This document shows positions 1,065-32,498 of a DNA stretch of 34,840 bases, piece after piece. Source of the stretch: Clostridia bacterium (GTDB lineage Bacteria > Bacillota > Clostridia > Christensenellales > Borkfalkiaceae); assembly GCA_017463105.1 (NCBI GenBank), contig JAFTPU010000007.1:1-34840 (forward strand), written 5' to 3'. The notes below the pieces were generated by a model. It saw only the letters and a program-made list of their open reading frames with translations. It had not been told where the DNA came from and ran no database searches. Every line of letters starts with the position of its first letter. Positions within the stretch are counted from its first letter, which is position 1. The translations under genes and the position numbers were made by a program.

Positions 1065-1268
1065 TCAATAGTCGCTCAAACCCAAAAGATAATCGGAAGA
1101 AACTTCTAAAAAACGGCACAGCAGACAAAGCGTTTCCAAAGAGGGAACGCTTTTTCCGCTTTTATAATCGGTGATACATTGCTTCGTTACGTTGATCGCC
1201 CGCGCAATCTCCACCTGCGTCTTCCCGCTGTTTTTTAATGCTTCGTTGAAGCGTTCGGTGAATTTCAT
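1065..1268 (-). CDS. Small XRE-family helix-turn-helix repressor
   Basis: A 67-residue protein that is almost entirely one Cro/CI-type helix-turn-helix domain. The block KTQVEIARAINVTKQCITDY is the HTH, followed by the usual SVPSLETLCLLCRFLEVSSDYLLG end. There is no extra sensor domain. It is divergent from the signal peptidase operon, and the region between them holds three related palindromes, one lying inside the operon promoter, so it very likely represses both itself and the operon (inference). SinR, also XRE-type, represses the sipW-tasA operon in Bacillus; this protein is shorter and lacks the SinI-binding tail, so orthology is not claimed. The gene has no ribosome site, and its TATAAT is 6 bases before the ATG. 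Confidence 0.9.
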   Translation of the reverse strand: MKFTERFNEALKNSGKTQVEIARAINVTKQCITDYKSGKSVPSLETLCLLCRFLEVSSDYLLGLSDY

Positions 1269-1274
1269 AAAAAT

Positions 1275-1280
1275 ATTATA
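1275..1280 (-). promoter_or_regulatory. -10 element of the XRE gene, leaderless geometry
   Basis: TATAAT on the minus strand ends 6 bases before the ATG at 1268, placing the expected transcription start at or next to the A of ATG. No ribosome site lies between. No clear -35 box was found. Confidence 0.6.
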
Positions 1281-1290
1281 CGAAAAACGG

Positions 1291-1354
1291 TCAGTTATTA
1301 CTTGACAGTCAGTTAAAAACTGATTATAATATAAATTGGAGTAAGTTATTAACT
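1291..1354. promoter_or_regulatory. Operator cluster between XRE gene and signal peptidase operon
   Basis: There are three related palindromes. They are AGTTATTACTT (1293-1303, one mismatch), TCAGTTAAAAACTGA (1309-1323, perfect 6-base arms) and AGTTATTAACT (1344-1354, perfect). The middle one fills the spacer between the -35 and -10 boxes of the operon promoter, an ideal position for repression. All share an AGTTA half site. That the neighbouring XRE protein binds them is inference from position and symmetry. Confidence 0.7.
1302..1330 (+). promoter_or_regulatory. Consensus promoter of the signal peptidase operon
   Basis: TTGACA (1302-1307), a 17-base spacer and TATAAT (1325-1330) match the sigma-A consensus exactly. 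Transcription should start near 1337, giving a leader of about 145 bases before the first gene. Confidence 0.85.
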
Positions 1355-1380
1355 GACTCTTACATACTTAAATTTTGTTC

Positions 1381-1402
1381 TTTTATATATTAATATATAA
1401 AA
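1381..1402. repeat. 22-base perfect AT palindrome in the operon leader
   Basis: TTTTATATATT is followed directly by its reverse complement. It lies in the leader of the signal peptidase operon and could be a further protein site or an RNA hairpin. Being entirely A and T, it is weaker evidence than its length suggests. Confidence 0.4.
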
Positions 1403-1482
1403 ACTTGATAGTAGGAGGCTGGCGCTAAAATAAAATTGGAATAATCGGGTATTATTTACAATATAAATTTCGGCAGGGTAAA

Positions 1483-2517
1483 ATGAAGGGAAAAGCAAAG
1501 AAAATCATAAAAACGACCTTATACGTTTTAGGATACGCTTTAATGGCGGTTTGTATGCTCGCACTTATTTTTGCCATTACCACGAAAAAAGATCCGGACG
1601 GTGCGGCAACAATTTTCGGGAAACAGCTCCGTATCGTCCGTTCCGATTCCATGGCGGAGAACGCGGAGACGGACGTGAGCGACTACGAGATAGGCTCGTT
1701 ACCAGTAAAAAGCGTGTTGTTTATCGACGTGGTGCCCGAGGATAAAGCGGAGGCGGACGCGTGGTATGCGGAGCTTAAAGTCGGAGACGTGCTGACCTTC
1801 CGTTACGTGTACGGCACGCAAGTGACGATCACGCACCGTATAATCGCGATCGCGCCCAACGAAACGGGCGGATACGACATTTCCCTGACGGGCGATAACT
1901 TCGCGGGCGAATACGGCGGCATGACGCAGAAGATCGATACCTCGGACGAGGCGAGCTTGAACTACGTGATCGGTAAAGTGACGGGGCATAGCTATACGCT
2001 CGGGGTGGTCATCTATGCACTGCGCACGCCCGTAGGAATCACCTGTATCGTCATTGTTCCCTGTCTGATCGTCATCGCGATGGAAATCGTTCGGATCGTC
2101 GGCGCGTTCCGTTCGGAAAAAACGGAAAAGGTGAAAGAGGAAAGCGCGAAACAACAAAACGAGATCGAGGAGCTTAAACGACAGCTCGCTATGCTTCAAC
2201 AAAGCGTAGCCGCGCCCGTCGGATCGGTACCTGCCCCGCCCGTAGCGACGGAAACGGCAACCGAAGCAAAACCGATTGAAGCCGTACCTGCCCCCGCCGA
2301 AAATGAAAAGATACGGGCGGAAACGGCACCTACGGACGAGACTACGACGGAATCTCCGAAGGAAAACGAACCGATACCCGAAAACGATAACAACGATAAC
2401 GATCAAGAAATACCGACGAAAACGGCACCCACGGACGAGACCACGGAAGATAGGGAAAAGGAACGTCTGCCGTCTGCGAAAGAAACGGAGCGAATAGAAC
2501 AAACGAAGGATAAGTAA
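1483..2517 (+). CDS. SipW-like (ER-type) signal peptidase I with long C-terminal tail
   Basis: A 344-residue membrane protein. TM1 is at about 11-32 and TM2 at about 175-207, with the S26 peptidase domain outside between them. The ER-type triad is visible: Ser56 in RSDSM, His118 in THRI and Asp138 in TGDNF. This is the SipW arrangement, which uses His rather than the Lys of ordinary bacterial signal peptidases. It should remove signal peptides from the next exported proteins, which carry the SipW-type GG(S/T)YALFT motif. Unusually, about 135 residues follow TM2: a coiled coil (about 211-245), then a Pro/Glu/Thr-rich segment with TAPTDETT twice. SipW of Bacillus lacks this. The ribosome site is weak (GGCAGGG). 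Confidence 0.88.
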   Translation: MKGKAKKIIKTTLYVLGYALMAVCMLALIFAITTKKDPDGAATIFGKQLRIVRSDSMAENAETDVSDYEIGSLPVKSVLFIDVVPEDKAEADAWYAELKVGDVLTFRYVYGTQVTITHRIIAIAPNETGGYDISLTGDNFAGEYGGMTQKIDTSDEASLNYVIGKVTGHSYTLGVVIYALRTPVGITCIVIVPCLIVIAMEIVRIVGAFRSEKTEKVKEESAKQQNEIEELKRQLAMLQQSVAAPVGSVPAPPVATETATEAKPIEAVPAPAENEKIRAETAPTDETTTESPKENEPIPENDNNDNDQEIPTKTAPTDETTEDREKERLPSAKETERIEQTKDK

Positions 2518-2586
2518 GACGGGACAACAACGGGGGACGTGGTGAAAACCGAAGAAGAAAAATTTAGACAGGAGGTCTGAAACGTT

Positions 2587-3327
2587 ATGACAGATAAGAT
2601 AATACTCGTATTTATGTGCTTTGCGATGTTGATGTGCGTGTACTCCACTCTCGTGATCACGCGCGACATCATAAAGGAACAGGTAGAAGCCCGCAAAGCG
2701 GCAAAAGAAGCGAAAGCGGCAAAAGCGCCCGCTCCCGCACCCGCGCCTCAGCCCGTTGCGGAGGCACCGCGGGAAACGGCAATCGAAGCGGAGCCCGAAA
2801 TCGAACCCGAAACCGAGTCTGAGCCCGAGTCCGTGCAGGAAGAGGTCGCGCCCGCAGAGGGCGACGGCGTGCGCTTCTCCTCGACGGTGCAGACGCTGGA
2901 AGAGAAGTATCTCGCGCTCACGTCCGAGTACAAGGGCTATTACGACGAGCTCGTGAAGTATGCGGCGCAGGTGGAGGACAGCAAGCGTTATAAAAACGTG
3001 CGCTATGAAGAATACAAACAGGGCAAGACCCGTTTGGTGCGACTTCTCATCAAACGCGGCGTGATACACGCGGAGCTGATCTTGCAGAACAGTAGCTTCA
3101 AATCGTACGTAACGGAAAACAAAATTTCCGTTAAGCACGCGGCGACGGTGATCAAGGTCTTGGACGAAACGACGGTACAGGCGGTAAAGGACGCGATCGA
3201 TATCGCGGTGAAAACGGCGCAGGACGAACGCGAGGAACGGAAACGCCTCGCTCGCGAAAGACGTCGGGAAAGACGCCGTAAATCGAATGCGGCAAACGCG
3301 ACGACGGAAAAAGAAAAGGAAAATTAA
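2587..3327 (+). CDS. One-TM protein with Pro/Glu-rich linker and coiled-coil, basic C terminus
   Basis: I do not recognise this 246-residue protein. It has one membrane segment at about 5-22, then an Ala/Lys helix, a Pro-Ala then Glu-Pro repeat linker (about 45-90), and a structured region (about 95-215) whose later part is strongly charged and helical. It ends in an Arg/Lys-rich tail. It starts 69 bases after the signal peptidase gene with a GGAGG site and is co-oriented with it. Its linker resembles in composition the tail of the signal peptidase, so the two may meet at the inner membrane face (inference). It could be an assembly or anchoring factor for the exported proteins; no catalytic motif is visible. 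Confidence 0.8.
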   Translation: MTDKIILVFMCFAMLMCVYSTLVITRDIIKEQVEARKAAKEAKAAKAPAPAPAPQPVAEAPRETAIEAEPEIEPETESEPESVQEEVAPAEGDGVRFSSTVQTLEEKYLALTSEYKGYYDELVKYAAQVEDSKRYKNVRYEEYKQGKTRLVRLLIKRGVIHAELILQNSSFKSYVTENKISVKHAATVIKVLDETTVQAVKDAIDIAVKTAQDEREERKRLARERRRERRRKSNAANATTEKEKEN

Positions 3328-3347
3328 AACAACGGAGGTATTAAAAC

Positions 3348-4040
3348 ATGGCAAAGAAAATGCGCACGATGATGATGGCGTATATGACCCTCACGCTCAG
3401 CGCACTGATGCTTGTCGGCGGCTCGTACGCGCTGTTCACGGACGAAGTCAACGAAGGCGTGCACTTGCAGGCGGGTACGTTGGACGCGGGTCTGAAAAGA
3501 ACCTCGCTCACCACGTATACGCTCGACCCTACTACGGGTAAAACGTTAAAAACCGAAAAAACGAACGAGGTAGATTTCACCAACAGCACCGAAAACGTTT
3601 TCGGATTGACGGCGGACACAAAGATCGTGCCCGGCAACACGTTCGAGGCGACGATGAAGCTCGAAAACGTGGACGCGGTGGCGTTCGATTATTGGATCTC
3701 GATCGAGCTGGCGGAAAAGGACGCAAACGGTACCGCGATCGATTACGGCACGCTTCATCTCGACGATCAGCTTGCGGTGACGGTGTACGTATCGGATGAG
3801 TACAAGATCGAAGGTCGGCGCCTCGGTAACGGCAGCTTCACCCTCGGCAGCGCCGAAGATACGATCGGTACGATAGAAAAGGATGGGAGCCAAACCTTTA
3901 CCGTAAAGGTAGAGTTCTTAAGCTTGGGCGACGGCGAAAACAACTCGTCCATGGGCGAAACCATCGATTTCGATCTCGTGGTATACGCGGTACAGAACAC
4001 GGAAATCTTGGAAACAAGCAGCAGCAACGTGAACGCTTAA
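3348..4040 (+). CDS. TasA/camelysin-like SipW-dependent exported protein
   Basis: A 230-residue protein with a SipW-type signal peptide: a hydrophobic stretch ending in LVGGSYALFTDE, where cleavage is expected near SYA. The mature part, with a D(F/Y)xNST block and a beta-rich, Gly/Asp/Asn-rich sequence, is like the beta-sandwich TasA/camelysin family, which forms matrix fibres in Bacillus. No LPXTG sorting signal is present. It lies 20 bases after the coiled-coil gene with a GGAGG site and one gene after the dedicated signal peptidase. Fibre formation is inference from family and context; it could also be a non-fibrous surface protein. Confidence 0.78.
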   Translation: MAKKMRTMMMAYMTLTLSALMLVGGSYALFTDEVNEGVHLQAGTLDAGLKRTSLTTYTLDPTTGKTLKTEKTNEVDFTNSTENVFGLTADTKIVPGNTFEATMKLENVDAVAFDYWISIELAEKDANGTAIDYGTLHLDDQLAVTVYVSDEYKIEGRRLGNGSFTLGSAEDTIGTIEKDGSQTFTVKVEFLSLGDGENNSSMGETIDFDLVVYAVQNTEILETSSSNVNA

Positions 4041-4077
4041 ATAAATCAAAAAACAATTTTAAAGGAGTACATAAAAA

Positions 4078-6555
4078 ATGAAAAGAAAGAACAAAGTTTT
4101 GCTTACGTCGTTGGCGACGATCGCAATGAGCACGAGCCTCATCGCGGGCGGTACGTATGCATTATTCACGAGCGAATCGAGCGTAAACCTCGCGGTTACT
4201 TCGGGTAAAGTCGAGGTCGAAGCTACGGCAAGCAACCTTCAGGAAAACAACCTCGCGGGTTGGGACAATATCGGCACGGCGACTCTGACGGACGACGGGG
4301 CGATCGTTATCGACAGAATGGTACCCAACGACAGCTTCACGTTCGACGTGACGATCACCAATTACAGCAACGTGGCGGCGCAATACAGAACGGTAGTGGA
4401 AACGACGGAAGACAACGGTCTTGCGGACGCGCTTACGGTAAGCTTTGAAAAGAAAGAAGCGACTAACGGTCAAGCGAAAATTGCATTCCTCGGCGGCTAC
4501 GGCGTCGACAATTGGACGTATTTGGAAGGCGTGGAAAACGGTACGGTTGTGGAAACGATCACCGTTACGATCTCTTTCGAATCGAAAGGCAACGAAGAAG
4601 ACAACAAATACAACGGCGATTACAGCTGTAAATATCAGCTTCGCGTAGAGGCGGTACAGGGCAACGCGGAAGTGGTGGATCCCATCACGTACGAAAACGG
4701 CGTATACTACGTGAACAGCGAAGATGGTATGCGTTTGATGAACAGTGTTATCAACACAACTTCTCACGGCGAGGGCAGATCGATCAAATTCGCCCTTACG
4801 GCAGATATGGATATGACTGGTATCGCTTGGACGCCTATTCACGCTTGGTGGGTAAACGTTGACGGTCAAAATCATACGGTTTCCAACCTTAACTGCGGTA
4901 TAGATTGGTGGGGCAGAAGCGGCTTTGCGGGCTACGTAGGCGGCGGCGTTATTGAAAACATCACGTTTGAAAACGTAACGGCGGAGGGCTCGCAGGCGGG
5001 TATCGTTGCGGGCTCGATCGAAGGCGCAACGCTCAACAACGTGAAAATCGCAGGTACGAACAGTGCGAAATTCAATCAATTGAAGAACCCCGCAGAAACG
5101 TGGGGCGGCGTAGGCGCAGTTTCGGGTGTAGCGACGGCGGTGAATACGGCAAGCACGGTAGAGATCGTAAGCGGAGCAACCGTAACGGTAGATTATAACG
5201 GACTTATCACCGAAGCGCCTATTCAAAACGCGTATTCGCAACTTACGGACATCAGCGCGATCGTAACGGATAACGGTACGGTAACGCCGAACGGTGTATA
5301 TTATCAGAAAATTGCAGACGGTATCGCGCTTGATCCCGATGGTAATTTGTGTGTATACAATGCAAACGGTTTGCAATATTTGAGTGCAAACGGCTTACAG
5401 AGTGTAAGCGCAACCTATTCGCTGAGAAGCAACGTAAACGTTGTTCTTATGAACGATATCGATATGGAAGGCGCGAAATTCAGCGCGATGTCGGTGCCCT
5501 ATAATGGCTCGGCTACCTTTGACGGCAACGGATATACGATTTCCAATATCAATATCGTTTCGGGTGAAAACGACAACTCTACGGGTATGGCTTCGCTTTT
5601 CTACGGTTACGAGGGTTCTACCTTGAATGTTTCCAACCTCAAACTTGAAAACGTTACCGTAACTTCCGACGAAAACGCTTCGGGTTATGCCGGCGTTATC
5701 GTAGGTTATGCACAGGGTACGTTAAACATTAGCGGTGTGGAAGTAAACAACGCTACGGTAAACGGTGCGAAGAGCTCGGGCGCATTGGTGGGACACGTTA
5801 CGCCTACGGCGCAAATCGTTGCGAGCGATTGCACCGTAACGAATGCGACCGTTACGATCGTTGAAACGGCAGAAGAACCCGACGGACATTACGCAGGTCA
5901 GTTGATTGGTAGAGTTGCGGGTATGGTCAAATTAGAGGATTGTTCTGCTGACGTTGAGGTTAGTGGCAATTTGCATGAGGATAACGAAGAGAACAGCATT
6001 TACGGAAATATGGTTGCGGGTGGCGCACTTGTCGAAGACGGCGAAATGAAAGCACAGAAATTGGCTACCGTTACCGTAATGACGGAAGAAGAACTTGCAA
6101 CGTTCAACGCGAATACGGAAGTTAAAATTTACGACACGGACACGGAAGTAGACCTTGAAGCGGCGTATACGTTTACGATGGCGCAAAGCTACGATATGGC
6201 ATTGGCAAGCGATTATGCAAATTGGCTGGCAGACTATTATGTAACGATCGATAGAGATATCGAAGAGGGTCAGCTTGGTCTTGCGGGATCGTATGAGTTA
6301 TGGCAGGACGGCACGTGGATCGCATTCTACGCTCCTGCAACGGAGGCAAACGTTGCAACGGGGCTTATGGCTTCCATAGACGCTACGTTTACGTATGCGG
6401 ACGTTGCAAACTTCGTTAAAGTATTCAACTGCGGCGTATTCGATAACAGCGGTGCGTGCGCAGGTATGACGATGAAAGTTGAGCTTCGTCTTACCAACCC
6501 CGAGGATTCGAGCGATTATATCGTTGTAAATTCGACGGAGTACACCTTCGCATAA
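4078..6555 (+). CDS. Large SipW-dependent surface protein with GLUG-like repeats
   Basis: An 825-residue exported protein. The N terminus carries the SipW-type signal (LIAGGTYALFTSE), followed by a TasA-like beta domain to about residue 200. Two repetitive stretches (about 205-310 and 440-620) show GLUG-like/beta-helix units such as GFAGYVGGGVIENITFENV and GYAGVIVGYAQGTLNISGV. The C terminus (about 680-825) is a separate beta-rich domain with few cysteines and no LPXTG or membrane anchor. The start has an AAAGGAG site 37 bases after the TasA-like gene. Its likely role is an adhesin or matrix component processed by the SipW-like enzyme; the ligand is unknown. Confidence 0.82.
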   Translation: MKRKNKVLLTSLATIAMSTSLIAGGTYALFTSESSVNLAVTSGKVEVEATASNLQENNLAGWDNIGTATLTDDGAIVIDRMVPNDSFTFDVTITNYSNVAAQYRTVVETTEDNGLADALTVSFEKKEATNGQAKIAFLGGYGVDNWTYLEGVENGTVVETITVTISFESKGNEEDNKYNGDYSCKYQLRVEAVQGNAEVVDPITYENGVYYVNSEDGMRLMNSVINTTSHGEGRSIKFALTADMDMTGIAWTPIHAWWVNVDGQNHTVSNLNCGIDWWGRSGFAGYVGGGVIENITFENVTAEGSQAGIVAGSIEGATLNNVKIAGTNSAKFNQLKNPAETWGGVGAVSGVATAVNTASTVEIVSGATVTVDYNGLITEAPIQNAYSQLTDISAIVTDNGTVTPNGVYYQKIADGIALDPDGNLCVYNANGLQYLSANGLQSVSATYSLRSNVNVVLMNDIDMEGAKFSAMSVPYNGSATFDGNGYTISNINIVSGENDNSTGMASLFYGYEGSTLNVSNLKLENVTVTSDENASGYAGVIVGYAQGTLNISGVEVNNATVNGAKSSGALVGHVTPTAQIVASDCTVTNATVTIVETAEEPDGHYAGQLIGRVAGMVKLEDCSADVEVSGNLHEDNEENSIYGNMVAGGALVEDGEMKAQKLATVTVMTEEELATFNANTEVKIYDTDTEVDLEAAYTFTMAQSYDMALASDYANWLADYYVTIDRDIEEGQLGLAGSYELWQDGTWIAFYAPATEANVATGLMASIDATFTYADVANFVKVFNCGVFDNSGACAGMTMKVELRLTNPEDSSDYIVVNSTEYTFA

Positions 6556-6570
6556 CGGAGGAAAAAAACG

Positions 6571-6607
6571 CGTGCCTCTTGCGTATACGCGCAAGAGGTG
6601 CGATTTT
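6571..6607 (+). terminator. Intra-operon terminator or attenuator
   Basis: CGTGCCTCTTGCG (6571-6583) pairs over 13 positions, two of them G-U, with CGCAAGAGGTGCG (6590-6602) around a 6-base loop, followed by ATTTTT. It separates the two SipW-dependent protein genes from the peptide and Hint genes. No promoter is visible after it, so the downstream genes probably depend on readthrough. Confidence 0.8.
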
Positions 6608-6626
6608 TCGCAAAAAAGGAGAAAAA

Positions 6627-6764
6627 ATGATAACGCAACAAATCAAAAAATACGATACGCCGTCGATCAATATCGTTTCGTTCGAACCTATCGACGTGCT
6701 CACGGGGAGCGTTGGATTCCAATATCCCTTTACGAGCGAAGGCGATCTGGGCTGGGGGGATTGA
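6627..6764 (+). CDS. 45-residue peptide of unknown function
   Basis: ATG 6627 has a good AAAAGGAG site and gives a 45-residue protein beginning MITQQIKKYDTPSINIVSF, with a middle EPIDVLTGSV and a C terminus GDLGWGD. There is no signal peptide or membrane segment. Its pattern (Y-x-x-P, then a hydrophobic strand, then (E/D)-x-x-D-V-L-T-x-S) resembles short hypothetical proteins that I recall in gut Firmicutes and Bacteroidales. Their function is unknown to me. The stop is 1 base before the next start, so translation is coupled to the Hint protein gene. It could be a peptide precursor, a small regulator or a chaperone. Confidence 0.65.
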   Translation: MITQQIKKYDTPSINIVSFEPIDVLTGSVGFQYPFTSEGDLGWGD

Positions 6765-6765
6765 T

Positions 6766-9700
6766 ATGAGAGTAAATAAAAAATTGAAATCGGTCATCGC
6801 AACGACGATTTGCGCGTTTTCTTGTGTGGTCGCGGGCGTAGGCTTTGCGATCGGAAACAACGTGGACGCAAGCGCGGACACGGCGACTTATTTTTGCGAC
6901 GGCGCAAGCGTCCGTATCGCAAACGACGGCAAAAACGGTATTCGTTTCCACGTACGTATGGAAAAGGAACAGTACGACGCGCTCGGTTTAAGCGAGTTGA
7001 CGACGGGCACGCTGGTTATCCCCAAAGACAAGTTGGGCGCGAGCGAGCTGAATATCGGCGGCGCGACGACGGGATATAACGGCGCGAAAGCCGCAAACGT
7101 CGTTACGACGGGCGAATGGACGGAGATCACCGTCGCAACGGGCACGTATATGGAGTCTGTCGTATATATGTACGATATTCCCGAAAGCGCGTACGGTCGC
7201 GACTTTGCGTTCCGCGGCTATTACGTGGACGGAAACGGAGCATATCAATACACAGAAGATACGGACGTGCGTTCGCTTTCCACGGTTGCGGCGTTTGCGA
7301 AGTATTATGCAAAATCCTCCTCCGACGAGTATTTTGCGGCAAACAGAGCGGTTACGACTTTTGCAAACGCAGACGATTATCTCTATCGCGTGGGTAACGA
7401 AAACGCGGTAAGCTTGACTTCGCTGTTTACGGCGGCGGAGGAACAGGGTTTCACGATCGGGGAAACCACGATCACGCCCGAGTATAAGCTCGAAGGGGTC
7501 ACGGTAGAAAACGTTTCGGGCGACGCAACGGGTACGGTTGCGGACGATCTGACGACGGTTCGATTCGAAGGAACGGGCGTTGTAAAGGTGACGGTGGACG
7601 AAGCGTACAGCGCGGCAAAAACGCTTTATTTGGAAGTGGTGGACGCTACCAACGTGACGGCATACAGCGAGCTGGGAAACAGAAACTCGGTACTGTTAAA
7701 CGATATCACGATGTCGAGCGGTAGTTCGTATTATTTATCGGGGGCTACCTTATACGGCAACGGTTTTACCTTTGACGTAAGCGACGGCGATTATACGGGC
7801 ACGGGGAGCGTTTCGAATAACTATCTCGTTTATTTAAGCAATGCGGCGTTGGATAACGTGAAGCTGGTCGGCGCGGTGTATACGACCTACGGCGCACAAG
7901 TAAAAGACGCTTACAACAGACCCGTCGTATTGTCCGTGGGGAACAGCACGATAGCAAACAGCTATATTTCGAATTGTGCCGCGCCCGTGCGTGTGAACGG
8001 CGGAAATTTGGAGATCGTCAACAGTACGTTGAAGGGCGGCAATTTCGCAAACCTCGATATCCGTAACGGCAACGTCGTTTTGGACAACGTGACGACGATC
8101 AATCAAGTAAACGGCAACGATACGGCTGACGACGGTACGGTCGTCGTAGGGCTCGGCGTGGTCGTGTATTACGAAAACGTGCTGAGCACCACTACGGTGA
8201 CGGTGAACAACGGCATTACGCAGTATAATCATCTTTCCGAAACGCAGGCGGATACGTATATTACGGACACTTACGCGAGCAAACTGATGGACGTGATGTT
8301 CGGAAGTACGTGTAGTGCGTTGCAATATTCGGACGGTTCGGATACTTGGGTAAATACGGGTATTTTATCGATGATAGACGCGGTAGGGGATAGCAATATT
8401 TCCGACGTGGACGGTTACGTAGAGGCTTCGCCGACAATGACGGGGGTAACGGGTTACGTGCATACGAGCGTACCTACGGCGGAAAGCATTGCGGCGACCG
8501 TGCCCGAATACGCTACGGCGGGGCAATACGAGATCGCGCCCGCGTATTCTTTCGACTATACGACGAAGAATTACGTGGCAAAGACGGACGGCAGCAACGA
8601 TTATTGCTACGAGGACAACGGCACCGTGTTGATCTCGATGGACGTGGGCGATACCTTCAATTGGGACACCTCTATTCTGACGGCGACGAAAGGAGACACG
8701 TTGAGTTACACCGTCAGCATGAACGGCGCCGATTATACGGGCAAGAGCATTGCGTTTAATACGGCGGGGAGATACGAGGTCGTTTATACGTATACCGATA
8801 GCAACAACTACGGTATGGACGAAAACGGTGGCGTGAGCACCTACGACAAAACGTATACGAAAACGGTGCATATTTCCGTATCGGTAGTCGCGCCCGAAGC
8901 AAAACACGCAACGTTTACGTTCGGCAGCAGCAATGCGGCGACCGAAAAGATCACGGTTAACAACAATACGTATATTTCCGCGACGGGCGTTACAGCCGAC
9001 AACAGCACGTGGACGTATATGATGATCGGCGATCAAAATATCTACTATCCCATTGTTGCCGCAAAGCTTACCTCTACCAAGGGTTCGAGTTCTTATGCGT
9101 ATTTCCCTGTGTTTGAGAACGTTGTTACCATCACCGATTATAAAAACGGCGGTATCGGCGACGCATTTACTTACAATTCTTCCACAACGACTTTGCCTAG
9201 TACATTGACGGCAGTCAAAGGTGTTTACAAGGAGGCAGCCGACGTAACGAGTTGGAGTAATTTGACCGACGGTAATCTGACTCAAAGCGGAGCTTCGAAT
9301 ATCTTCAAATGGGCGTCCGCCTCTTCTGCGGGAAGTGACCCCGAGGTTTATAACAACGTGCTTTGTTATAAATCGCCTAATGTTTCTGCCGATCGAGTGG
9401 CATATATAACGTTGGTGCAATACTCCTACACGGATTCTACGAATACGACGTATTACTACTACGTAGGCTATACGTTGGAGGCGTTTACGAAGAGTAGTAC
9501 CTGCGTAACGGGCGACACGCTTGTAACGCTTGCGGACGGCACGCAGAAACGGATAGACGCGCTCACGGGCGACGAAACGTTCCTCGTTTGGAATTTCCGT
9601 ACGGGAGAGTATGACGAGGCGCCCGCGTCGATTCTGATGAATCACGGTTACGACACCGTCAACGTTACCGAATTGATATTCGAGGACGGTACGACGGTCA

Positions 9701-10179
9701 AGACGATCAACGGACACGGGTTCTTCGATACGGCGACGAACGAGTTTGTGCTTCTCGACGAGTATAACGTCGCCGAGTATATCGGGCACGAATTCGTCAA
9801 GGTCGACGGCGACGGTTACGCAACGACGAAGCTTGTAGGATACGACGTTTCCGAACAGTATACGGAAGTATGGTCCGTTCTTACGGCGGAGCAGTATAAC
9901 TGTATACTCGAGGGCATGTGGACGGTTACCGCCGCGGAGGTGGAGAACAGTCCCGCATGGTTGATGCCTTACGAGGTCGGCGAGGATATGAAATACGACG
10001 AAGCCGCAATGCAAGCCGATATCGAAAAATACGGTTTGTATACGTACGAGGATTTCGAAGCGTATTGCTCCTACGAGCAGTTTGCGGCGTTCGGATTCGA
10101 AAACTTTAAGGTTTCCGTCGGAAAAGGCTACATCACATGGGACGAGATCATATACTTGATCGAATTGCATCTCGGCTAA
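6766..10179 (+). CDS. 1137-residue secreted protein with C-terminal Hint domain
   Basis: ATG 6766 follows a GGGGGGA site and gives a standard signal peptide (about 1-36, ending DASADT). Residues about 40-170 form an N-terminal domain (ASVRIANDGKNGIRFHVRM) seen in clostridial surface proteins. Several Ig-like and beta-helix-like stretches follow, including SLTSLF..., ITMSSGSSYYL and a bacterial Ig-like part near 620-720. Cys913 opens a Hint domain: CVTGDTLVTLADGTQKR, then TTVKTINGHGFFD with the block-B His. It is followed by a tail, YGLYTYEDFEAY and VSVGKGYITWDEIIYLIE, which I recognise as the usual partner of such clostridial Hint domains. Self-cleavage or ester transfer at Cys913 is inferred from the family. 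Confidence 0.82.
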   Translation: MRVNKKLKSVIATTICAFSCVVAGVGFAIGNNVDASADTATYFCDGASVRIANDGKNGIRFHVRMEKEQYDALGLSELTTGTLVIPKDKLGASELNIGGATTGYNGAKAANVVTTGEWTEITVATGTYMESVVYMYDIPESAYGRDFAFRGYYVDGNGAYQYTEDTDVRSLSTVAAFAKYYAKSSSDEYFAANRAVTTFANADDYLYRVGNENAVSLTSLFTAAEEQGFTIGETTITPEYKLEGVTVENVSGDATGTVADDLTTVRFEGTGVVKVTVDEAYSAAKTLYLEVVDATNVTAYSELGNRNSVLLNDITMSSGSSYYLSGATLYGNGFTFDVSDGDYTGTGSVSNNYLVYLSNAALDNVKLVGAVYTTYGAQVKDAYNRPVVLSVGNSTIANSYISNCAAPVRVNGGNLEIVNSTLKGGNFANLDIRNGNVVLDNVTTINQVNGNDTADDGTVVVGLGVVVYYENVLSTTTVTVNNGITQYNHLSETQADTYITDTYASKLMDVMFGSTCSALQYSDGSDTWVNTGILSMIDAVGDSNISDVDGYVEASPTMTGVTGYVHTSVPTAESIAATVPEYATAGQYEIAPAYSFDYTTKNYVAKTDGSNDYCYEDNGTVLISMDVGDTFNWDTSILTATKGDTLSYTVSMNGADYTGKSIAFNTAGRYEVVYTYTDSNNYGMDENGGVSTYDKTYTKTVHISVSVVAPEAKHATFTFGSSNAATEKITVNNNTYISATGVTADNSTWTYMMIGDQNIYYPIVAAKLTSTKGSSSYAYFPVFENVVTITDYKNGGIGDAFTYNSSTTTLPSTLTAVKGVYKEAADVTSWSNLTDGNLTQSGASNIFKWASASSAGSDPEVYNNVLCYKSPNVSADRVAYITLVQYSYTDSTNTTYYYYVGYTLEAFTKSSTCVTGDTLVTLADGTQKRIDALTGDETFLVWNFRTGEYDEAPASILMNHGYDTVNVTELIFEDGTTVKTINGHGFFDTATNEFVLLDEYNVAEYIGHEFVKVDGDGYATTKLVGYDVSEQYTEVWSVLTAEQYNCILEGMWTVTAAEVENSPAWLMPYEVGEDMKYDEAAMQADIEKYGLYTYEDFEAYCSYEQFAAFGFENFKVSVGKGYITWDEIIYLIELHLG

Positions 10180-10292: not shown

Positions 10293-10330
10293 CGGACGGG
10301 ACTTACGGAATTCCCGTCCGTCTTTCGTTT
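10293..10330 (+). terminator. Terminator of the surface locus
   Basis: CGGACGGGA (10293-10301) pairs with TCCCGTCCG (10312-10320); a T-rich tail, TCTTTCGTTTT, follows. It closes the rightward gene series that begins at 1483. Confidence 0.75.
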
Positions 10331-10373
10331 TGTGTAAAACAGATAAAAATTGGCAAAAATACGTTAAAAGAGA

Positions 10374-10402
10374 TTGACAGAACGGGAATTAAACGCTAAA
10401 AT
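10374..10402 (+). promoter_or_regulatory. Promoter of the cyclophilin-like lipoprotein gene
   Basis: TTGACA (10374-10379), a 17-base spacer and TAAAAT (10397-10402), about 60 bases before the start codon. Confidence 0.75.
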
Positions 10403-10463
10403 AATAAAGTAGTATTATGTGTATGCAGTGGGTTTTTCCCGATAACGCGCACAGGAGGCAAAT

Positions 10464-16996: not shown

Positions 16997-18961
16997 ATGA
17001 AGGTCAAAAAGCATATATTATCGATATTGGCGCTTTTAATGACGGCTGCCTGTGCGTTCGGTGTGGCGGGCTGTAACAAAGAAAGCGGAAGTAAGGACAA
17101 ATCGGGTGATTCGCAACAGGAGCAGGGCGGGAATGAAGATATTTCCGATTCCTCGGAAAGTGCGGACGAGAAAACCGATGCGGAAGATAGTACCGATTCG
17201 GAGGGCGATGAGCAAGAGCACGTACATAGCTATATTCTTAAAGTGGCGGAAAAAAAATATTTGAAATCGGAAGCGACCTGTACGGATAAAGCGGTTTATT
17301 ATAAATCTTGCAAATGCGAAGAGGCAGGCGAAGACACATTCGAATACGGCGAGGCTTTGGGACATATCGAGGACGCGCCCGTTTGCGAGCGTTGTCGGGT
17401 AAAAGTGTACAGCGACGGTCTGGAATATACGCTCAGCAATGACAAAACGTATTATGCGGTCACGGGAATCGGCAATTGCGAGGATCCGGATATAATCATA
17501 CCCCAAAAGTGCGACGGTTTGCCTGTGACGGCGGTCGGCGGCGAGGCTTTTAAATTTTGCCGTAATTTAACGAGCGTAACGATCCCGGATAGTGTGACTT
17601 CGATCGGTAAAGACGCGTTTTATTATTGCGACGCTTTGACGAGCGTAACGCTCGGAAAAAATGTGATGACCGTCGGGGATTATGCCTTTGCGCTTTGTAC
17701 TAAATTAACGGACGTATATTATAGGGGAGATATAGTGAGTTGGTGTGGCGTTTCTTTCGGTGATATGCAAGCCAATCCTTTGTATTATGCGGAAAAGCTA
17801 TATATCGATGACGAGCAGGTAAGCGAAATCGTTGTGCCCGACGGTGTAACGGAGGTCAAAGCATACGCGTTTTATGGTTGTGATGGCTTGATAAGCGTAA
17901 CAATGGAAAACAGCGTGATTTTTATTGGGGAAAATGCATTCCGTGATTGTGTTGATTTGGAACGCGTGGTTTTTTCTCAAAATACAACTTTTATCGGGGA
18001 AGCGGCTTTTTTGGGTTGCAGTAGCTTAACGAGTGTTGCAATCCCCCAAGGGGTTGGGTCGGTGTTGAATTCTACATTTAGCGGTTGCAGTAGTTTGACG
18101 AGAGTGGACTTATCCGAAGGCATAGCTTCTATCGGGGAATCTGCTTTTAGAGGGTGTGGCAAATTGACGAGCGTTATTGTTCCCGCGAGCGTAACCTTTA
18201 TCGGTAAGGCGGCGTTTGGAGATTGTGGCAGTTTGGAAAGTATCACGCTTCCGTTTGTGGGTGGGAGCGCGACGGCAAACTTGGAAAACTCCGTGTTTGG
18301 ATGGATTTTTGGGTGTGCGATCACTACAAGTCTGAATTCGGCGATAGAAGAGGCGACCTATCAATATATGGATTTGGAAAGTTCGCCTAAGAAGTATTAC
18401 TACTACTATATTCCCGCGAGTTTGAGATCGGTAACGCTTACCAATGAAACGTCTCTTGCGGATTATGCATTTTGGAATTGTGCGAATTTAACAAGTATTA
18501 CGTTGTCCGAGAAAACGGTTTCCATCGGAGAATGCGCCTTCCTCAATTGTAGTAATCTGATAACTTTTGAACTCCCCCAAAGCGTGACTTCTCTCGGCGC
18601 AAATTCTGCGTTTAATAATTGTAGCAGCCTGACGAGCATCGCGATTCCCGAAGGTGTGGAAACGATCGGACCTTCCACGTTCAGCGATTGCGGCGGATTG
18701 TTGAGCGTTACGCTTCCCGAAAGTCTAACCGTTATCGGCAATTATGCGTTTAAGAAGTGTGAAAATTTGACGAGCATAACGATCGGAAAAGGGGTAACGA
18801 ATATCGGAATCCGTGCGTTTATTGATTGCGTGGATCTGACGTCGATTCGATACGAGGGCACGATCGAGGAATGGAATTTGATTGAAAAAGGGAATGAATG
18901 GAATGATAATATTTCCGCAACCGAGATCATTTGCTCGGATGGGACGGTAACTTTGGAATAA
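16997..18961 (+). CDS. BspA-like leucine-rich repeat (LRR_5) lipoprotein
   Basis: A 654-residue lipoprotein (lipobox VAGC near residue 26). After an acidic Ser/Glu/Asp linker comes a Cys-containing segment (CTDKAVYYKSCKCEEAG, then CERC) typical of these proteins. From about residue 165 to 630 run many LRR_5 (Treponema-type) repeats, for example FKFCRNLTSVTIPDSVTSIG and FSGCSSLTRVDLSEGIASIG, and the usual end with a GTIEEW block and CSDGTV. Such proteins sit on the cell surface and in some species bind host or bacterial partners; the ligand here is unknown. It lies between tsf and pyrH under the divergent XRE gene with its own promoter and terminator, so it looks like an inserted unit. Confidence 0.92.
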   Translation: MKVKKHILSILALLMTAACAFGVAGCNKESGSKDKSGDSQQEQGGNEDISDSSESADEKTDAEDSTDSEGDEQEHVHSYILKVAEKKYLKSEATCTDKAVYYKSCKCEEAGEDTFEYGEALGHIEDAPVCERCRVKVYSDGLEYTLSNDKTYYAVTGIGNCEDPDIIIPQKCDGLPVTAVGGEAFKFCRNLTSVTIPDSVTSIGKDAFYYCDALTSVTLGKNVMTVGDYAFALCTKLTDVYYRGDIVSWCGVSFGDMQANPLYYAEKLYIDDEQVSEIVVPDGVTEVKAYAFYGCDGLISVTMENSVIFIGENAFRDCVDLERVVFSQNTTFIGEAAFLGCSSLTSVAIPQGVGSVLNSTFSGCSSLTRVDLSEGIASIGESAFRGCGKLTSVIVPASVTFIGKAAFGDCGSLESITLPFVGGSATANLENSVFGWIFGCAITTSLNSAIEEATYQYMDLESSPKKYYYYYIPASLRSVTLTNETSLADYAFWNCANLTSITLSEKTVSIGECAFLNCSNLITFELPQSVTSLGANSAFNNCSSLTSIAIPEGVETIGPSTFSDCGGLLSVTLPESLTVIGNYAFKKCENLTSITIGKGVTNIGIRAFIDCVDLTSIRYEGTIEEWNLIEKGNEWNDNISATEIICSDGTVTLE

Positions 18962-30742: not shown

Positions 30743-31441
30743 ATGAAAGAACAAAACGAGCAAGAAAAAGAAAAGATCAAAGCAAAGAAGCCGAGAAAGA
30801 AACTCAGCGGCGAAAAGAGATTTTATCTCATCACCGCGCTCGGTTGCGCGGCGGCGCTCATTGCGATCGTTGCCGTGGCGATCGCGGTATCGGGTAACGA
30901 CCCCGTCGACGGGAATCAAGCGTCGGGCGGCGGCGCGAGCATCGAAAGCCCTCTGCCTTCCGACTCGTCCGATACGGGCGCAAGCGGGGACAACGGCGAC
31001 GGCGGCGAACAGGTGGGCGGCTCCACCGACGGCATGGTAATGCCCCTCGAAACGGTGACCGTGCTCAACGATTACGGCTTCTATCATAATATCACGCTCA
31101 ATTCGTATTACGAGCACAAGGGCGTCGATTTTACCTGCGAGGCGGGTACGAACGTACGCGCCGTGGACGCGGGCACGATCGAAAGTATTTATAAGGACGA
31201 TATCCTGCTCGGCACGGAGATCACGATCGATCACGGTGACGGCTTGAAATCGGTGTACCGTTTCGTGAGCGAGGCGGAGGGTTTGACCGTCGGACAAACG
31301 GTAAACAAAGGCGACGTGATCGCGACGGTCGCGGAAGCGAACGGCAACGAATACAAGGACGGCGCGCACCTGCACTTCGAGATCACCAAGGACAGCACGC
31401 ACGTGGATCCCGCCGTATATCTGACGCTGGAAGAAAAGTAA
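30743..31441 (+). CDS. M23 (LytM) domain membrane protein, SpoIIQ-like
   Basis: A 232-residue type II membrane protein: basic N terminus, one TM segment (about 26-50), a Ser/Gly/Asp-rich linker, and an M23 domain (about 95-232). The zinc motifs are complete: YYEHKGVDF (H-x-x-x-D) and HLHFE (H-x-H). Such proteins are peptidoglycan endopeptidases or, as SpoIIQ, scaffold the forespore-mother cell channel; the layout and the upstream YwmB-like gene suit SpoIIQ. The GGAGG site is used. A close homologue follows it at 31566, with long stretches of identical DNA. Confidence 0.82.
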   Translation: MKEQNEQEKEKIKAKKPRKKLSGEKRFYLITALGCAAALIAIVAVAIAVSGNDPVDGNQASGGGASIESPLPSDSSDTGASGDNGDGGEQVGGSTDGMVMPLETVTVLNDYGFYHNITLNSYYEHKGVDFTCEAGTNVRAVDAGTIESIYKDDILLGTEITIDHGDGLKSVYRFVSEAEGLTVGQTVNKGDVIATVAEANGNEYKDGAHLHFEITKDSTHVDPAVYLTLEEK

Positions 31442-31565: not shown

Positions 31566-32498
31566 ATGAAAAAAGGTTTATTGGCGATATTGACGGCGGG
31601 CGTTTGCATGCTCGGTCTGGCGGGGTGCAACGACGGAAGCGATTCCGAGGGCGCGAACGGCAACGTGTGGAATATGCAAACGGTCTATGCGCAGGCGAAA
31701 GAATTGGGCTACGACGGCACGCTGGAAGATTTTATGGCGACGGTTTCGGGCGTCGACGGCGTCGACGGTAAGGACGGCGTCGGTATCGAAGATATTTATA
31801 TCAATAAAAAGGGCGAGCTGATTGTCAAGCTGACGAAGGGCGCGGATAAGAACCTCGGCGTGATCGGCGAAGCGACAGGCGAACAACACAAGCACGTTTG
31901 GGACGAAACGGTGGAAATCCGCAAAGCGACTTGTTCGCAGTCGGGCGTCGTCTTGGAGATTTGCTCCGATTGCGGCGAGGGCAAGTATACCGTCATAGAA
32001 AAATTGAGCGAAAAGGATGAACATAGTTTCTCGAACGGCGTTTGTACGGTTTGCGGAGAAAGGGTGTTTGTCGTAAATCAAAAGTGGTCTGCCCCGATCA
32101 CGGGCGCAACCGTTTTACACGGTTACGGTTTTTATCATAACGCCACGCTGAACGCCTATTACGAGCATACGGGCGTTGACTTTGCCGCAGAAGTAGGCGC
32201 GGAGGTCTGCGTCGTGGCGGACGGCACGATCGAAAGTATTTATAAGGACGATATCCTGCTCGGCACGGAAATTACCGTCGATCACGGCGACGGCTTGAAA
32301 TCGGTGTACCGTTTCGTGAACGAGGCGGAGGGCTTGATCGTCGGACAAACGGTAAACAAAGGCGACGTGATCGCGACGGTCGCGGAAGCGAACGGAAACG
32401 AATATAAAGACGGTGCGCATCTGCATTTCGAGGTTCTTGAAAACAACGCGAACGTCGACCCGATGGCGTATCTCGATATATGGACGACCGTCTATTGA
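31566..32498 (+). CDS. M23 (LytM) domain lipoprotein
   Basis: A 310-residue lipoprotein (lipobox LAGC, Cys21). After a linker comes a helix NMQTVYAQAKELGYDG and a collagen-like GVDGVDGKDGVGI segment. A Cys-rich part follows (ATCSQSG, CSDCGEG, CTVCGE), also typical of clostridial surface lipoproteins. The C-terminal M23 domain (about 180-310) has YYEHTGVDF and HLHFE intact. Its domain is almost the same as that of the preceding gene, so the pair is a recent duplication in which this copy joined a lipoprotein front. It may act on peptidoglycan at the cell surface. AGAGGA is the ribosome site; it has its own promoter. Confidence 0.85.
   Translation: MKKGLLAILTAGVCMLGLAGCNDGSDSEGANGNVWNMQTVYAQAKELGYDGTLEDFMATVSGVDGVDGKDGVGIEDIYINKKGELIVKLTKGADKNLGVIGEATGEQHKHVWDETVEIRKATCSQSGVVLEICSDCGEGKYTVIEKLSEKDEHSFSNGVCTVCGERVFVVNQKWSAPITGATVLHGYGFYHNATLNAYYEHTGVDFAAEVGAEVCVVADGTIESIYKDDILLGTEITVDHGDGLKSVYRFVNEAEGLIVGQTVNKGDVIATVAEANGNEYKDGAHLHFEVLENNANVDPMAYLDIWTTVY

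Follow-up and report, generated by a model that had tools for sequence, protein, structure and literature searches.

A predicted repressor-switched SipW/TasA-type operon and a separate peptide-Hint cassette on a contig of a Clostridia bacterium

A donor strand and a conserved 'proline box' are described for TasA in the sections cited here (PMC9674648, PMC10151520), and SinR is reported to be a protein of 113 amino acids (aa; PMC5864091). In Clostridium perfringens, secretion of BsaA is reported to need sipW, the protein forms filaments, and transcription reads through a predicted terminator into the genes behind bsaA (PMC7395162, cited sections). In this study, we analysed 34,840 bases of Clostridia bacterium DNA (JAFTPU010000007.1; hereafter the window), which are a whole contig of a 1.29-Mb genome of about 80% completeness, and focused on a sipW, TasA-like and Hint gene locus at positions 1065 to 10179. 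An original prediction, made from the letters and the open frames, had read this locus as one repressor-controlled system for export and assembly of a surface fibre or adhesin. All of the open frames that it named were found at the positions and sizes it gave; our own open-frame lists were produced mechanically.

The genes are present as described, but judged from their sequence they form two units, not one system. Unit 1 (1065-6555) holds a 67-aa repressor opposite sipW, followed by genes for a coiled-coil membrane protein, a TasA-like protein and an 825-aa protein. Unit 2 (6627-10179) is a separate cassette of a 45-aa peptide and a Hint protein. We consider it likely that unit 1 is a repressor-switched operon exporting and assembling a TasA/BsaA-type fibre, and that unit 2 is a separate inserted cassette, expressed by read-through, with a self-cutting Hint domain. 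The gene set, the operator-in-promoter arrangement, the SipW-type signals, the TasA/camelysin kinship and the conserved order can be demonstrated at the level of sequence. Repressor control, the SipW/TasA core and the coiled-coil companion stand from the earlier interpretation, and the peptide and the Hint protein as system parts do not. The features of unit 1 are the following.

1065..1268, minus strand: XRE/HTH_3 repressor, RstR-like, 67 aa, divergent from sipW (HTH_3 match at E 8.6e-12, residues 9-61)
1291-1305, 1309-1323 and 1342-1356, both strands matched: three predicted operator-like palindromes, the one at 1309-1323 an exact TCAGTTAAAAACTGA
1302..1330, plus strand: sipW operon promoter TTGACA-17-TATAAT, 12 of 12 consensus bases, with the palindrome TCAGTTAAAAACTGA in the spacer
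1352-1323, minus strand: weaker promoter-like site for the repressor gene, 10 of 12 consensus bases, overlapping the same palindromes
1483..2517, plus strand: SipW (endoplasmic reticulum (ER)-type) signal peptidase, 344 aa, with a charged C-terminal tail of about 130 aa
2587..3327, plus strand: coiled-coil membrane protein, 246 aa, with one transmembrane segment (by eye) and a conserved C-terminal domain; SipW companion
3348..4040, plus strand: predicted TasA/BsaA/camelysin-like fibre subunit, 230 aa, with the SipW-type signal GGSYALFT
4078..6555, plus strand: 825-aa SipW-type cargo, with a TasA-type N-terminal domain, a repeat-rich middle (by eye) and a C-terminal domain common to other large cargos

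Relatives of the locus were collected through SipW. A scan of contigs with the single protein gave 0 matches, and an alignment-based scan gave 68 named SipW loci (69 when the window is counted in). They lie in metagenome-assembled genomes (MAGs) of uncultured Clostridia, plus some Bacilli and Erysipelotrichaceae; where a source is named, the MAGs are mostly from the guts of deer, sheep, goat, buffalo, rabbit and other animals. Counts of TapA-like genes refer to loci with at least 800 bp upstream (65 loci), those of TasA-like and coiled-coil genes to loci with at least 2.5 kb downstream (60) and those of the large protein to loci with at least 4.5 kb (52). The profiles used for these counts were built from a few members that recur among the 68 loci. 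Eight loci (L125, L132, L145, L152, L160, L169, L182 and L189) are probably the same contigs as loci with G handles, so that the named-locus set and the G-handle set are not independent.

There is a strong case from sequence for direct, self-limiting repression at the sipW promoter, with the 67-aa protein as the putative binder of the palindromes. A perfect promoter with an operator (at most 2 mismatches) in its spacer is present in 6 of the 69 loci (the window, L125, L142, L145, L160 and L182), and the same six are those with an RstR-like repressor just upstream of sipW. In three of the six the promoter/operator stretch could be aligned base by base. The pair was not found in the other 63 loci, 3 of which have little upstream sequence (less than 800 bp 5' of sipW), where a repressor or operator could escape notice. 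At up to three mismatches the palindrome has 6 matches on both strands of the window, at the three sites and one other place, against 0.96 expected, and the 0-mismatch TCAGTTAAAAACTGA site is unique in the source genome (80% complete). A looser 2-mismatch pattern is no commoner genome-wide than its reversed control (28 vs 31 matches), and promoter-like sites are not enriched across the whole scanned stretch (10 vs 9.6 in shuffles). Repressor homologues adjoining sipW are 80.6% identical in L032 and 82.1% in L029. Helix-turn-helix (HTH) genes in L137, L156 and L183 were also considered as the same repressor and dropped on their sequences and upstream stretches. The SinR-like logic first proposed holds to the extent that, by sequence, an HTH repressor controls the operon; the family is a different one. 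Of the NCBIfam models RstR matches best, with 49 bits where its cut-off is 80, no SinR model is among the 13 listed for the repressor, and the 67-aa protein, with its HTH ending at residue 61, lacks the further C-terminal region of a SinR-type repressor.

The SipW/TasA core is borne out by family matches, invariant residues and SipW-type signals. In SipW, the SM, THR and GDN box residues (Ser56, His118 and Asp138) are invariant in 10 of 10 aligned sequences. The boxes of SipW/ER-type enzymes carry the catalytic Ser, a catalytic His (not Lys) and the GDN motif, all of which the window protein has. It scored 46.4 bits against the NCBIfam SipW equivalog model from Bacillus, with a cut-off of 190, and is therefore a homologue and not the Bacillus equivalog. 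The archaeal-type signal peptidase model (sigpep_I_arch) gave 27.4 bits with a cut-off of 51.85, and a PDB profile search with the SipW profile reached SEC11A (E 0.0088). The extended length of the peptidase, once thought a special trait, is not one, since SipW frames in these loci reach 429 aa.

The GG(S/T)YALFT signal is exact in both the 230- and the 825-aa protein, with the only two 0-mismatch matches in the window at 3417 and 4147 (0.03 expected at up to 2 mismatches). Both cargos thus carry the SipW-type signal looked for in TasA, BsaA and camelysin. The TIGR04088 model for SipW-dependent signals matched the 825-aa protein with 25.6 bits, above its cut-off of 19, and the 230-aa protein with 15.2 bits, below it. 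The best Pfam match of the TasA-like proteins is Peptidase_M73 (camelysin, PF12389), which in the 825-aa protein covers residues 8-195 (E 5.5e-4, 20.2 bits, cut-off 22.5). By such models, the proteins of the window have genuine family matches, most of which fall below curated cut-offs. GLUG repeats, which had been suggested for the 825-aa protein, gave no Pfam match there at E <= 0.1. Among 62 TasA-like relatives, matches at E <= 0.01 were obtained to PF12389 in 55, to TIGR04088 in 46, to BsaA (TIGR04090) in 20 and to TasA (NF046066) in 10. Pro95 is invariant in the alignment (62/62) and, with Gln216, is among its four invariant positions; this proline may be equivalent to the TasA proline box.

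The order of these genes is conserved. A TasA-like gene lies behind sipW in 58 of 60 loci, and a large protein with a TasA domain or SipW signal in 45 of 52. A Hint gene was found in 1 of the 68 SipW loci, upstream and in an unrelated place (44 of the 68 extend 8 kb beyond sipW). Of the 200 frames in the 6 kb that follow sipW, 91 carry the SipW-type motif, compared with 9 of 591 elsewhere; going by this linkage of motif and sipW, SipW may be the enzyme that cuts the GG(S/T)YALF signals. The motif is not universal in the TasA family, since it is present in 43 of 80 small members and 62 of 75 large ones. Ten loci (L127, L131, L135, L138, L143, L146, L149, L151, L155 and L166) have a second SipW gene, often with more TasA-domain genes, behind the first set, and these are apparently duplicated or stacked fibre operons. 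In L047 (4129-4518), two short frames hold parts of the C-terminal domain of a large cargo, apparently a decayed gene.

The coiled-coil gene, placed in the system by the original prediction, proved to be a true companion of SipW. It lies behind sipW in 31 of 60 named loci, and of its seven matches in the genus the six strong ones adjoin a strong SipW match and the weak seventh does not. The window protein has no Pfam family at E <= 0.01. Just 5' of sipW, 57 of 65 loci have a gene for a membrane-anchored protein of about 170 aa, which we call TapA-like by its position, its size and a single N-terminal hydrophobic stretch, a label that does not assert homology to TapA. For the coiled-coil and TapA-like sets, Pfam matches were scattered and confined to one or two members, and PDB profile searches gave nothing firm (best E 0.72 and 0.27, respectively). 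The order that recurs in the gut MAGs is TapA-like, sipW, in some cases coiled-coil, TasA-like and large protein. Within the group of six that share the repressor, the window, L125 and L142 have the coiled-coil gene and no TapA-like gene, and L145, L160 and L182 the reverse.

In the mechanism that we propose, the 67-aa protein would sit on the operators and shut both promoters. On its release, SipW would cut the GG(S/T)YALF signals of the 230- and 825-aa proteins between Ala and Leu. The freed N-terminal strand would then allow the TasA-like subunits to polymerise by donor-strand exchange. The 825-aa protein may join the fibre via its TasA-type N-terminus and display its repeat region as an adhesin, and the coiled-coil protein may work with SipW at the membrane.

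Unit 2 and its flanks comprise the following features.

6571..6602, plus strand: strong hairpin with a short T tail (attenuator or terminator), 14-pair stem, fold -27 kcal/mol, z -5.15, directly 3' of the large gene
6627..6764, plus strand: gene for a 45-aa peptide of the 'Y..P...E..DVLT.S' family, in the separate cassette
6766..10179, plus strand: secreted Hint protein, 1137 aa, with an ordinary signal peptide (by eye), a GIRF-type N-terminal domain (about residues 41-210), Hint Cys913/His984 and a conserved tail of about 70 aa
10293..10402, plus strand: hairpin/T-run and cyclophilin promoter TTGACA-17-TAAAAT, homologous to the stretch directly behind the last large gene in relatives

Among the relatives that share the repressor, three (L125, L145 and L182) have the cyclophilin gene immediately after the last large cargo gene; L160 stops within the large gene and cannot show what follows. 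The hairpin and promoter that precede the cyclophilin gene in these relatives have their counterpart in the window 3' of the Hint gene: the match covers 10,328-10,426 for L125 and 10,344-10,416 for L182, and L145 aligns too. Because of this match, about 3.7 kb in the window can be placed between the operon and its old terminator, where the peptide and Hint cassette would have been inserted. The two genes were rejected as operon parts on account of this synteny and of their own scattered family. No SipW-type signal was found on the Hint protein, the exact motif being matched only in the 230- and 825-aa proteins. The claim that the peptide and the Hint protein belong to one SipW/TasA system is therefore not supported: cyclophilin follows the operon in three relatives, the Hint gene is at 1 of 68 SipW loci, its product lacks the signal and the pair is scattered over the genus. 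Only 24 bases separate the end of the hairpin (6602) from the start of the peptide gene (6627). They leave no room for a promoter, so read-through past 6571-6602 is the simplest route to express the cassette, and unit 2 is probably transcribed in this way.

Of the 61 genomes searched, 8 hold Hint homologues, counting that of the window. The N-terminal Cys and the block-B His of the domain are both present and are invariant in 8 of 8 homologues. These are the residues of the self-cleaving role. A near full-length homologue in L043 is 44.6% identical over residues 54-1135, on a contig that carries an rpoB-like gene (by eye). With a profile of the eight homologues, 12 PDB sequences were matched at E <= 1; Hint, intein or Hedgehog chains make up ten of these (E 0.005-0.55). 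We take the ADP-ribosyltransferase and Prp8 chains among these matches to be intein-like domains. Family models scored low: the window protein matched an intein-bearing helicase model weakly (20.1 bits, cut-off 780), the homologue L041 matched the Hint module PF01079 with 26.1 bits (cut-off 29.7), and Pfam gave no match for the window protein at E <= 0.1 or for L043 at E <= 0.05. The Hint domain would likely cut itself at Cys913.

Several points weigh against the reading of a fibre operon with an inserted cassette. The match of the 230-aa protein to PF12389 is just below the cut-off (21.9 vs 22.5 bits), and profiles of the TasA-like proteins gave no significant PDB match (none with A6; best AbpX at E 0.15 with A7). 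The repeat region and the adhesin role of the 825-aa protein were read by eye. The TapA-like gene, common in relatives, is missing from the window. The repressor adjoins sipW in 6 of the 69 loci only and is thus not a general feature of SipW loci. In L142, which has the same repressor, an unrelated 745-aa frame stands before the cyclophilin position. The hairpin at 6571-6602 may also stop transcription completely; unit 2 would then have to be driven from a promoter that was not seen.

The peptide belongs to a wider family of peptide genes placed before genes with a GIRF-type domain. A set of 15 peptides, mostly from next to GIRF genes, went into the peptide profile, and their neighbours went into the GIRF profile; the two are therefore linked by construction. 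Peptide matches occur in 47 of 57 genomes of the genus (E <= 0.1) and in 7 of 248 across the order (at the different threshold of E <= 0.001). The GIRF-type domain is found in 51 of 57 (E <= 0.001) and 6 of 248 (E <= 1e-5), with the window's genome in each set. Per-genome counts of the two rise together over the 57 genomes (Spearman 0.93, uncorrected for genome size). A peptide lies no more than 450 bp upstream in 24 of the best 30 GIRF loci, compared with 0 of 30 on the reverse strand; 12 of the 24 carry a seed peptide, and without seeds the count is 12 of 18. The last 20 GIRF matches among those listed include no seeds, and a peptide lies upstream of 11 (reverse strand 0/20). Of 100 peptides listed, 40 are followed by a listed GIRF domain at a distance of 128-303 bp, 8 have one further away and 2 have one upstream, and for the other 50 none is listed on the same contig and strand; conversely, 40 of the 150 listed GIRF domains are preceded by one of these peptides. 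In 27 related peptide pairs, chosen at 50% protein identity or more, replacement changes are rarer than silent ones (e.g. pN/pS 0.15/0.37, 0.24/0.53 and 0.25/0.81). For this reason a peptide of the 45-aa type is very probably translated and kept, as judged from these substitutions. Neither the peptide nor the GIRF domain could be assigned to a Pfam family, and NCBIfam gave no convincing one. A PDB profile search with the GIRF domain gave nothing firm (best E 0.39), and a literature text search for the peptide motifs gave only matches that look unrelated. In L213 (1768-2467), a peptide ending in GEDDPIP adjoins a 172-aa lipoprotein ending in GELDPIP, so that the two share a tail.

Other readings of the locus were weighed against that of a fibre operon with an inserted cassette. 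The peptide and the Hint protein might be working parts of the SipW/TasA machine, with the Hint protein making, for example, a covalent fibre anchor. The same strand, the close spacing and the lack of promoter room between hairpin and peptide make co-expression plausible. We nevertheless regard this reading as quite unlikely, since the only Hint gene at the 68 SipW loci is at an unrelated position, the Hint protein has no SipW-type signal, the peptide/surface-protein pair lies away from SipW in many genomes and three relatives with the same repressor end the operon directly before the cyclophilin gene. It is also conceivable that the TasA-like protein and the large one form no fibres and are, like camelysin, soluble or placed at the cell surface, as the best Pfam match to Peptidase_M73 would suggest. 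This is improbable in our view, because two biofilm-matrix families are matched as well, BsaA by 20 and TasA by 10 of the 62 relatives, and because the gene called TapA-like by position and size precedes sipW in 57 of 65 loci. The repressor and operon may, on the other hand, be a mobile or phage-derived module with an incidental surface role. The best family of the repressor is the phage RstR, below its cut-off, and strong SipW matches are patchy in the genus (11 of 57 genomes). However, rplJ/rplL-like neighbours and the cyclophilin gene recur in several relatives, and the frame lists of the window, read by eye and without a dedicated scan, showed no integrase or phage gene. A mobile origin is thus very unlikely.

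Two further readings concern the peptide. It might be a mere translational coupler for the surface gene behind it, without a function as a peptide. The gap to the Hint start is 1 bp in the window, and the next long frame is at most 18 bp away or overlapping in 23 of 30 peptide loci. The scarcity of replacement changes in the 27 pairs, picked at 50% protein identity or more, and the peptide tails common within subgroups argue otherwise, and we hold a pure coupler to be possible and rather doubtful. The second reading follows from the leader-like motif Y..P...E..DVLT.S, which resembles those of ribosomally synthesized and post-translationally modified peptides (RiPPs). Cytosolic peptides of about 40-65 aa, made genus-wide directly before a large secreted partner, would be bound by one central cassette of PqqD, peptidase and ABC transporter and exported to act on or label the partner, and the window pair, with its Hint partner, would have been placed under the repressor-controlled fibre operon. 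PqqD was found in 32 of the 57 genus genomes and 11 of 12 good ones, and not in the window's own genome (80% complete). In L212 (3308-5535), a distant relative within the order, a motif peptide is directly followed by radical SAM, PqqD and S24-like genes. Because of the L212 cluster and the presence of PqqD in most of the better genus genomes, a processed-peptide role is thinkable and no more. Beside the window peptide no RiPP modification enzyme was seen. PqqD and peptide presence are associated over the 57 genomes (Fisher p 0.016) and not in genomes at least 80% complete (p 0.21), and two PqqD genomes lack a peptide match. Inspection of 12 PqqD loci of 33 listed revealed no peptide match, and no radical SAM gene was noticed by eye within 4.5 kb on either side of them, no genome-wide radical SAM search having been made. 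In L237-L248, PqqD stands beside an S24/S26-like peptidase, an ABC transporter and mostly an HprK-like protein of about 240 aa (by eye); groES/groEL-like genes are near PqqD in 11 of 12 loci read (by eye). Since the PqqD link vanishes in genomes at least 80% complete and the 12 PqqD loci inspected hold no peptide match, the RiPP reading was not adopted as the main one, and we consider it unlikely.

Our preferred reading, a TasA/BsaA-type fibre operon with an inserted peptide-Hint cassette, would extend the TasA/SipW matrix systems to uncultured gut Clostridia of ruminants and other herbivores. It would add to them a simple repressor/operator switch, large cargos with a TasA domain and a conserved coiled-coil partner, for which the window protein gave no Pfam family. 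Pairs of a peptide and a surface protein, which are much more frequent in the genus than in the sampled rest of its order, form an unexplained family. We do not put forward the coiled-coil partner or the peptide family as unpublished. Elsewhere in the window, two neighbouring genes (30743-31441 and 31566-32498) have very alike C-terminal halves, metallopeptidase-like by eye, and represent a tandem duplication. A 654-aa lipoprotein with leucine-rich-type repeats (by eye) is encoded at 16997-18961, between tsf-like and pyrH-like frames.

By its genes, unit 1 is a variant of the known TasA/BsaA/camelysin systems, and unit 2 is the less explained part. Unit 1 resembles the C. perfringens sipW-bsaABCRSD operon in that a clostridial sipW is followed by a TasA-family matrix protein (PMC7395162, cited sections). 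That operon is described there as needing the BsaRS two-component system, whereas the window has a 67-aa repressor with operators; the coiled-coil companion and the large TasA-domain cargo also set the window apart from it. Filaments, and a terminator with read-through into downstream secreted-protein genes, as reported for C. perfringens, are also predicted for the window. As in tapA-sipW-tasA of B. subtilis (PMC9674648, PMC10151520, cited sections), most relatives of the window are ordered TapA-like, SipW and TasA-like, and an HTH repressor is in control. The TapA-like protein of these relatives and B. subtilis TapA are alike by position and size only. The window differs from the B. subtilis operon in having no TapA-like gene, a repressor that is RstR-like and not SinR, and extra coiled-coil and large cargo genes. 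The sipW-calY1-bc_1280-calY2 locus of B. cereus (PMC10151520, cited sections) differs from the window in its gene set and was likened to it by description, not sequence; it too has sipW first, no tapA, and a camelysin-family cargo with a further protein. Unit 2 recalls Hedgehog/intein (Hint) proteins and bacterial intein-like domains through its kept Cys and His positions and weak profile matches. Its Hint domain lies near the C-terminus of a secreted protein and has the conserved tail (about 70 aa) and no splicing-type C-terminal Asn (by eye); in the 8 homologues the Hint part and this tail can be aligned, and the partners in front of them differ.

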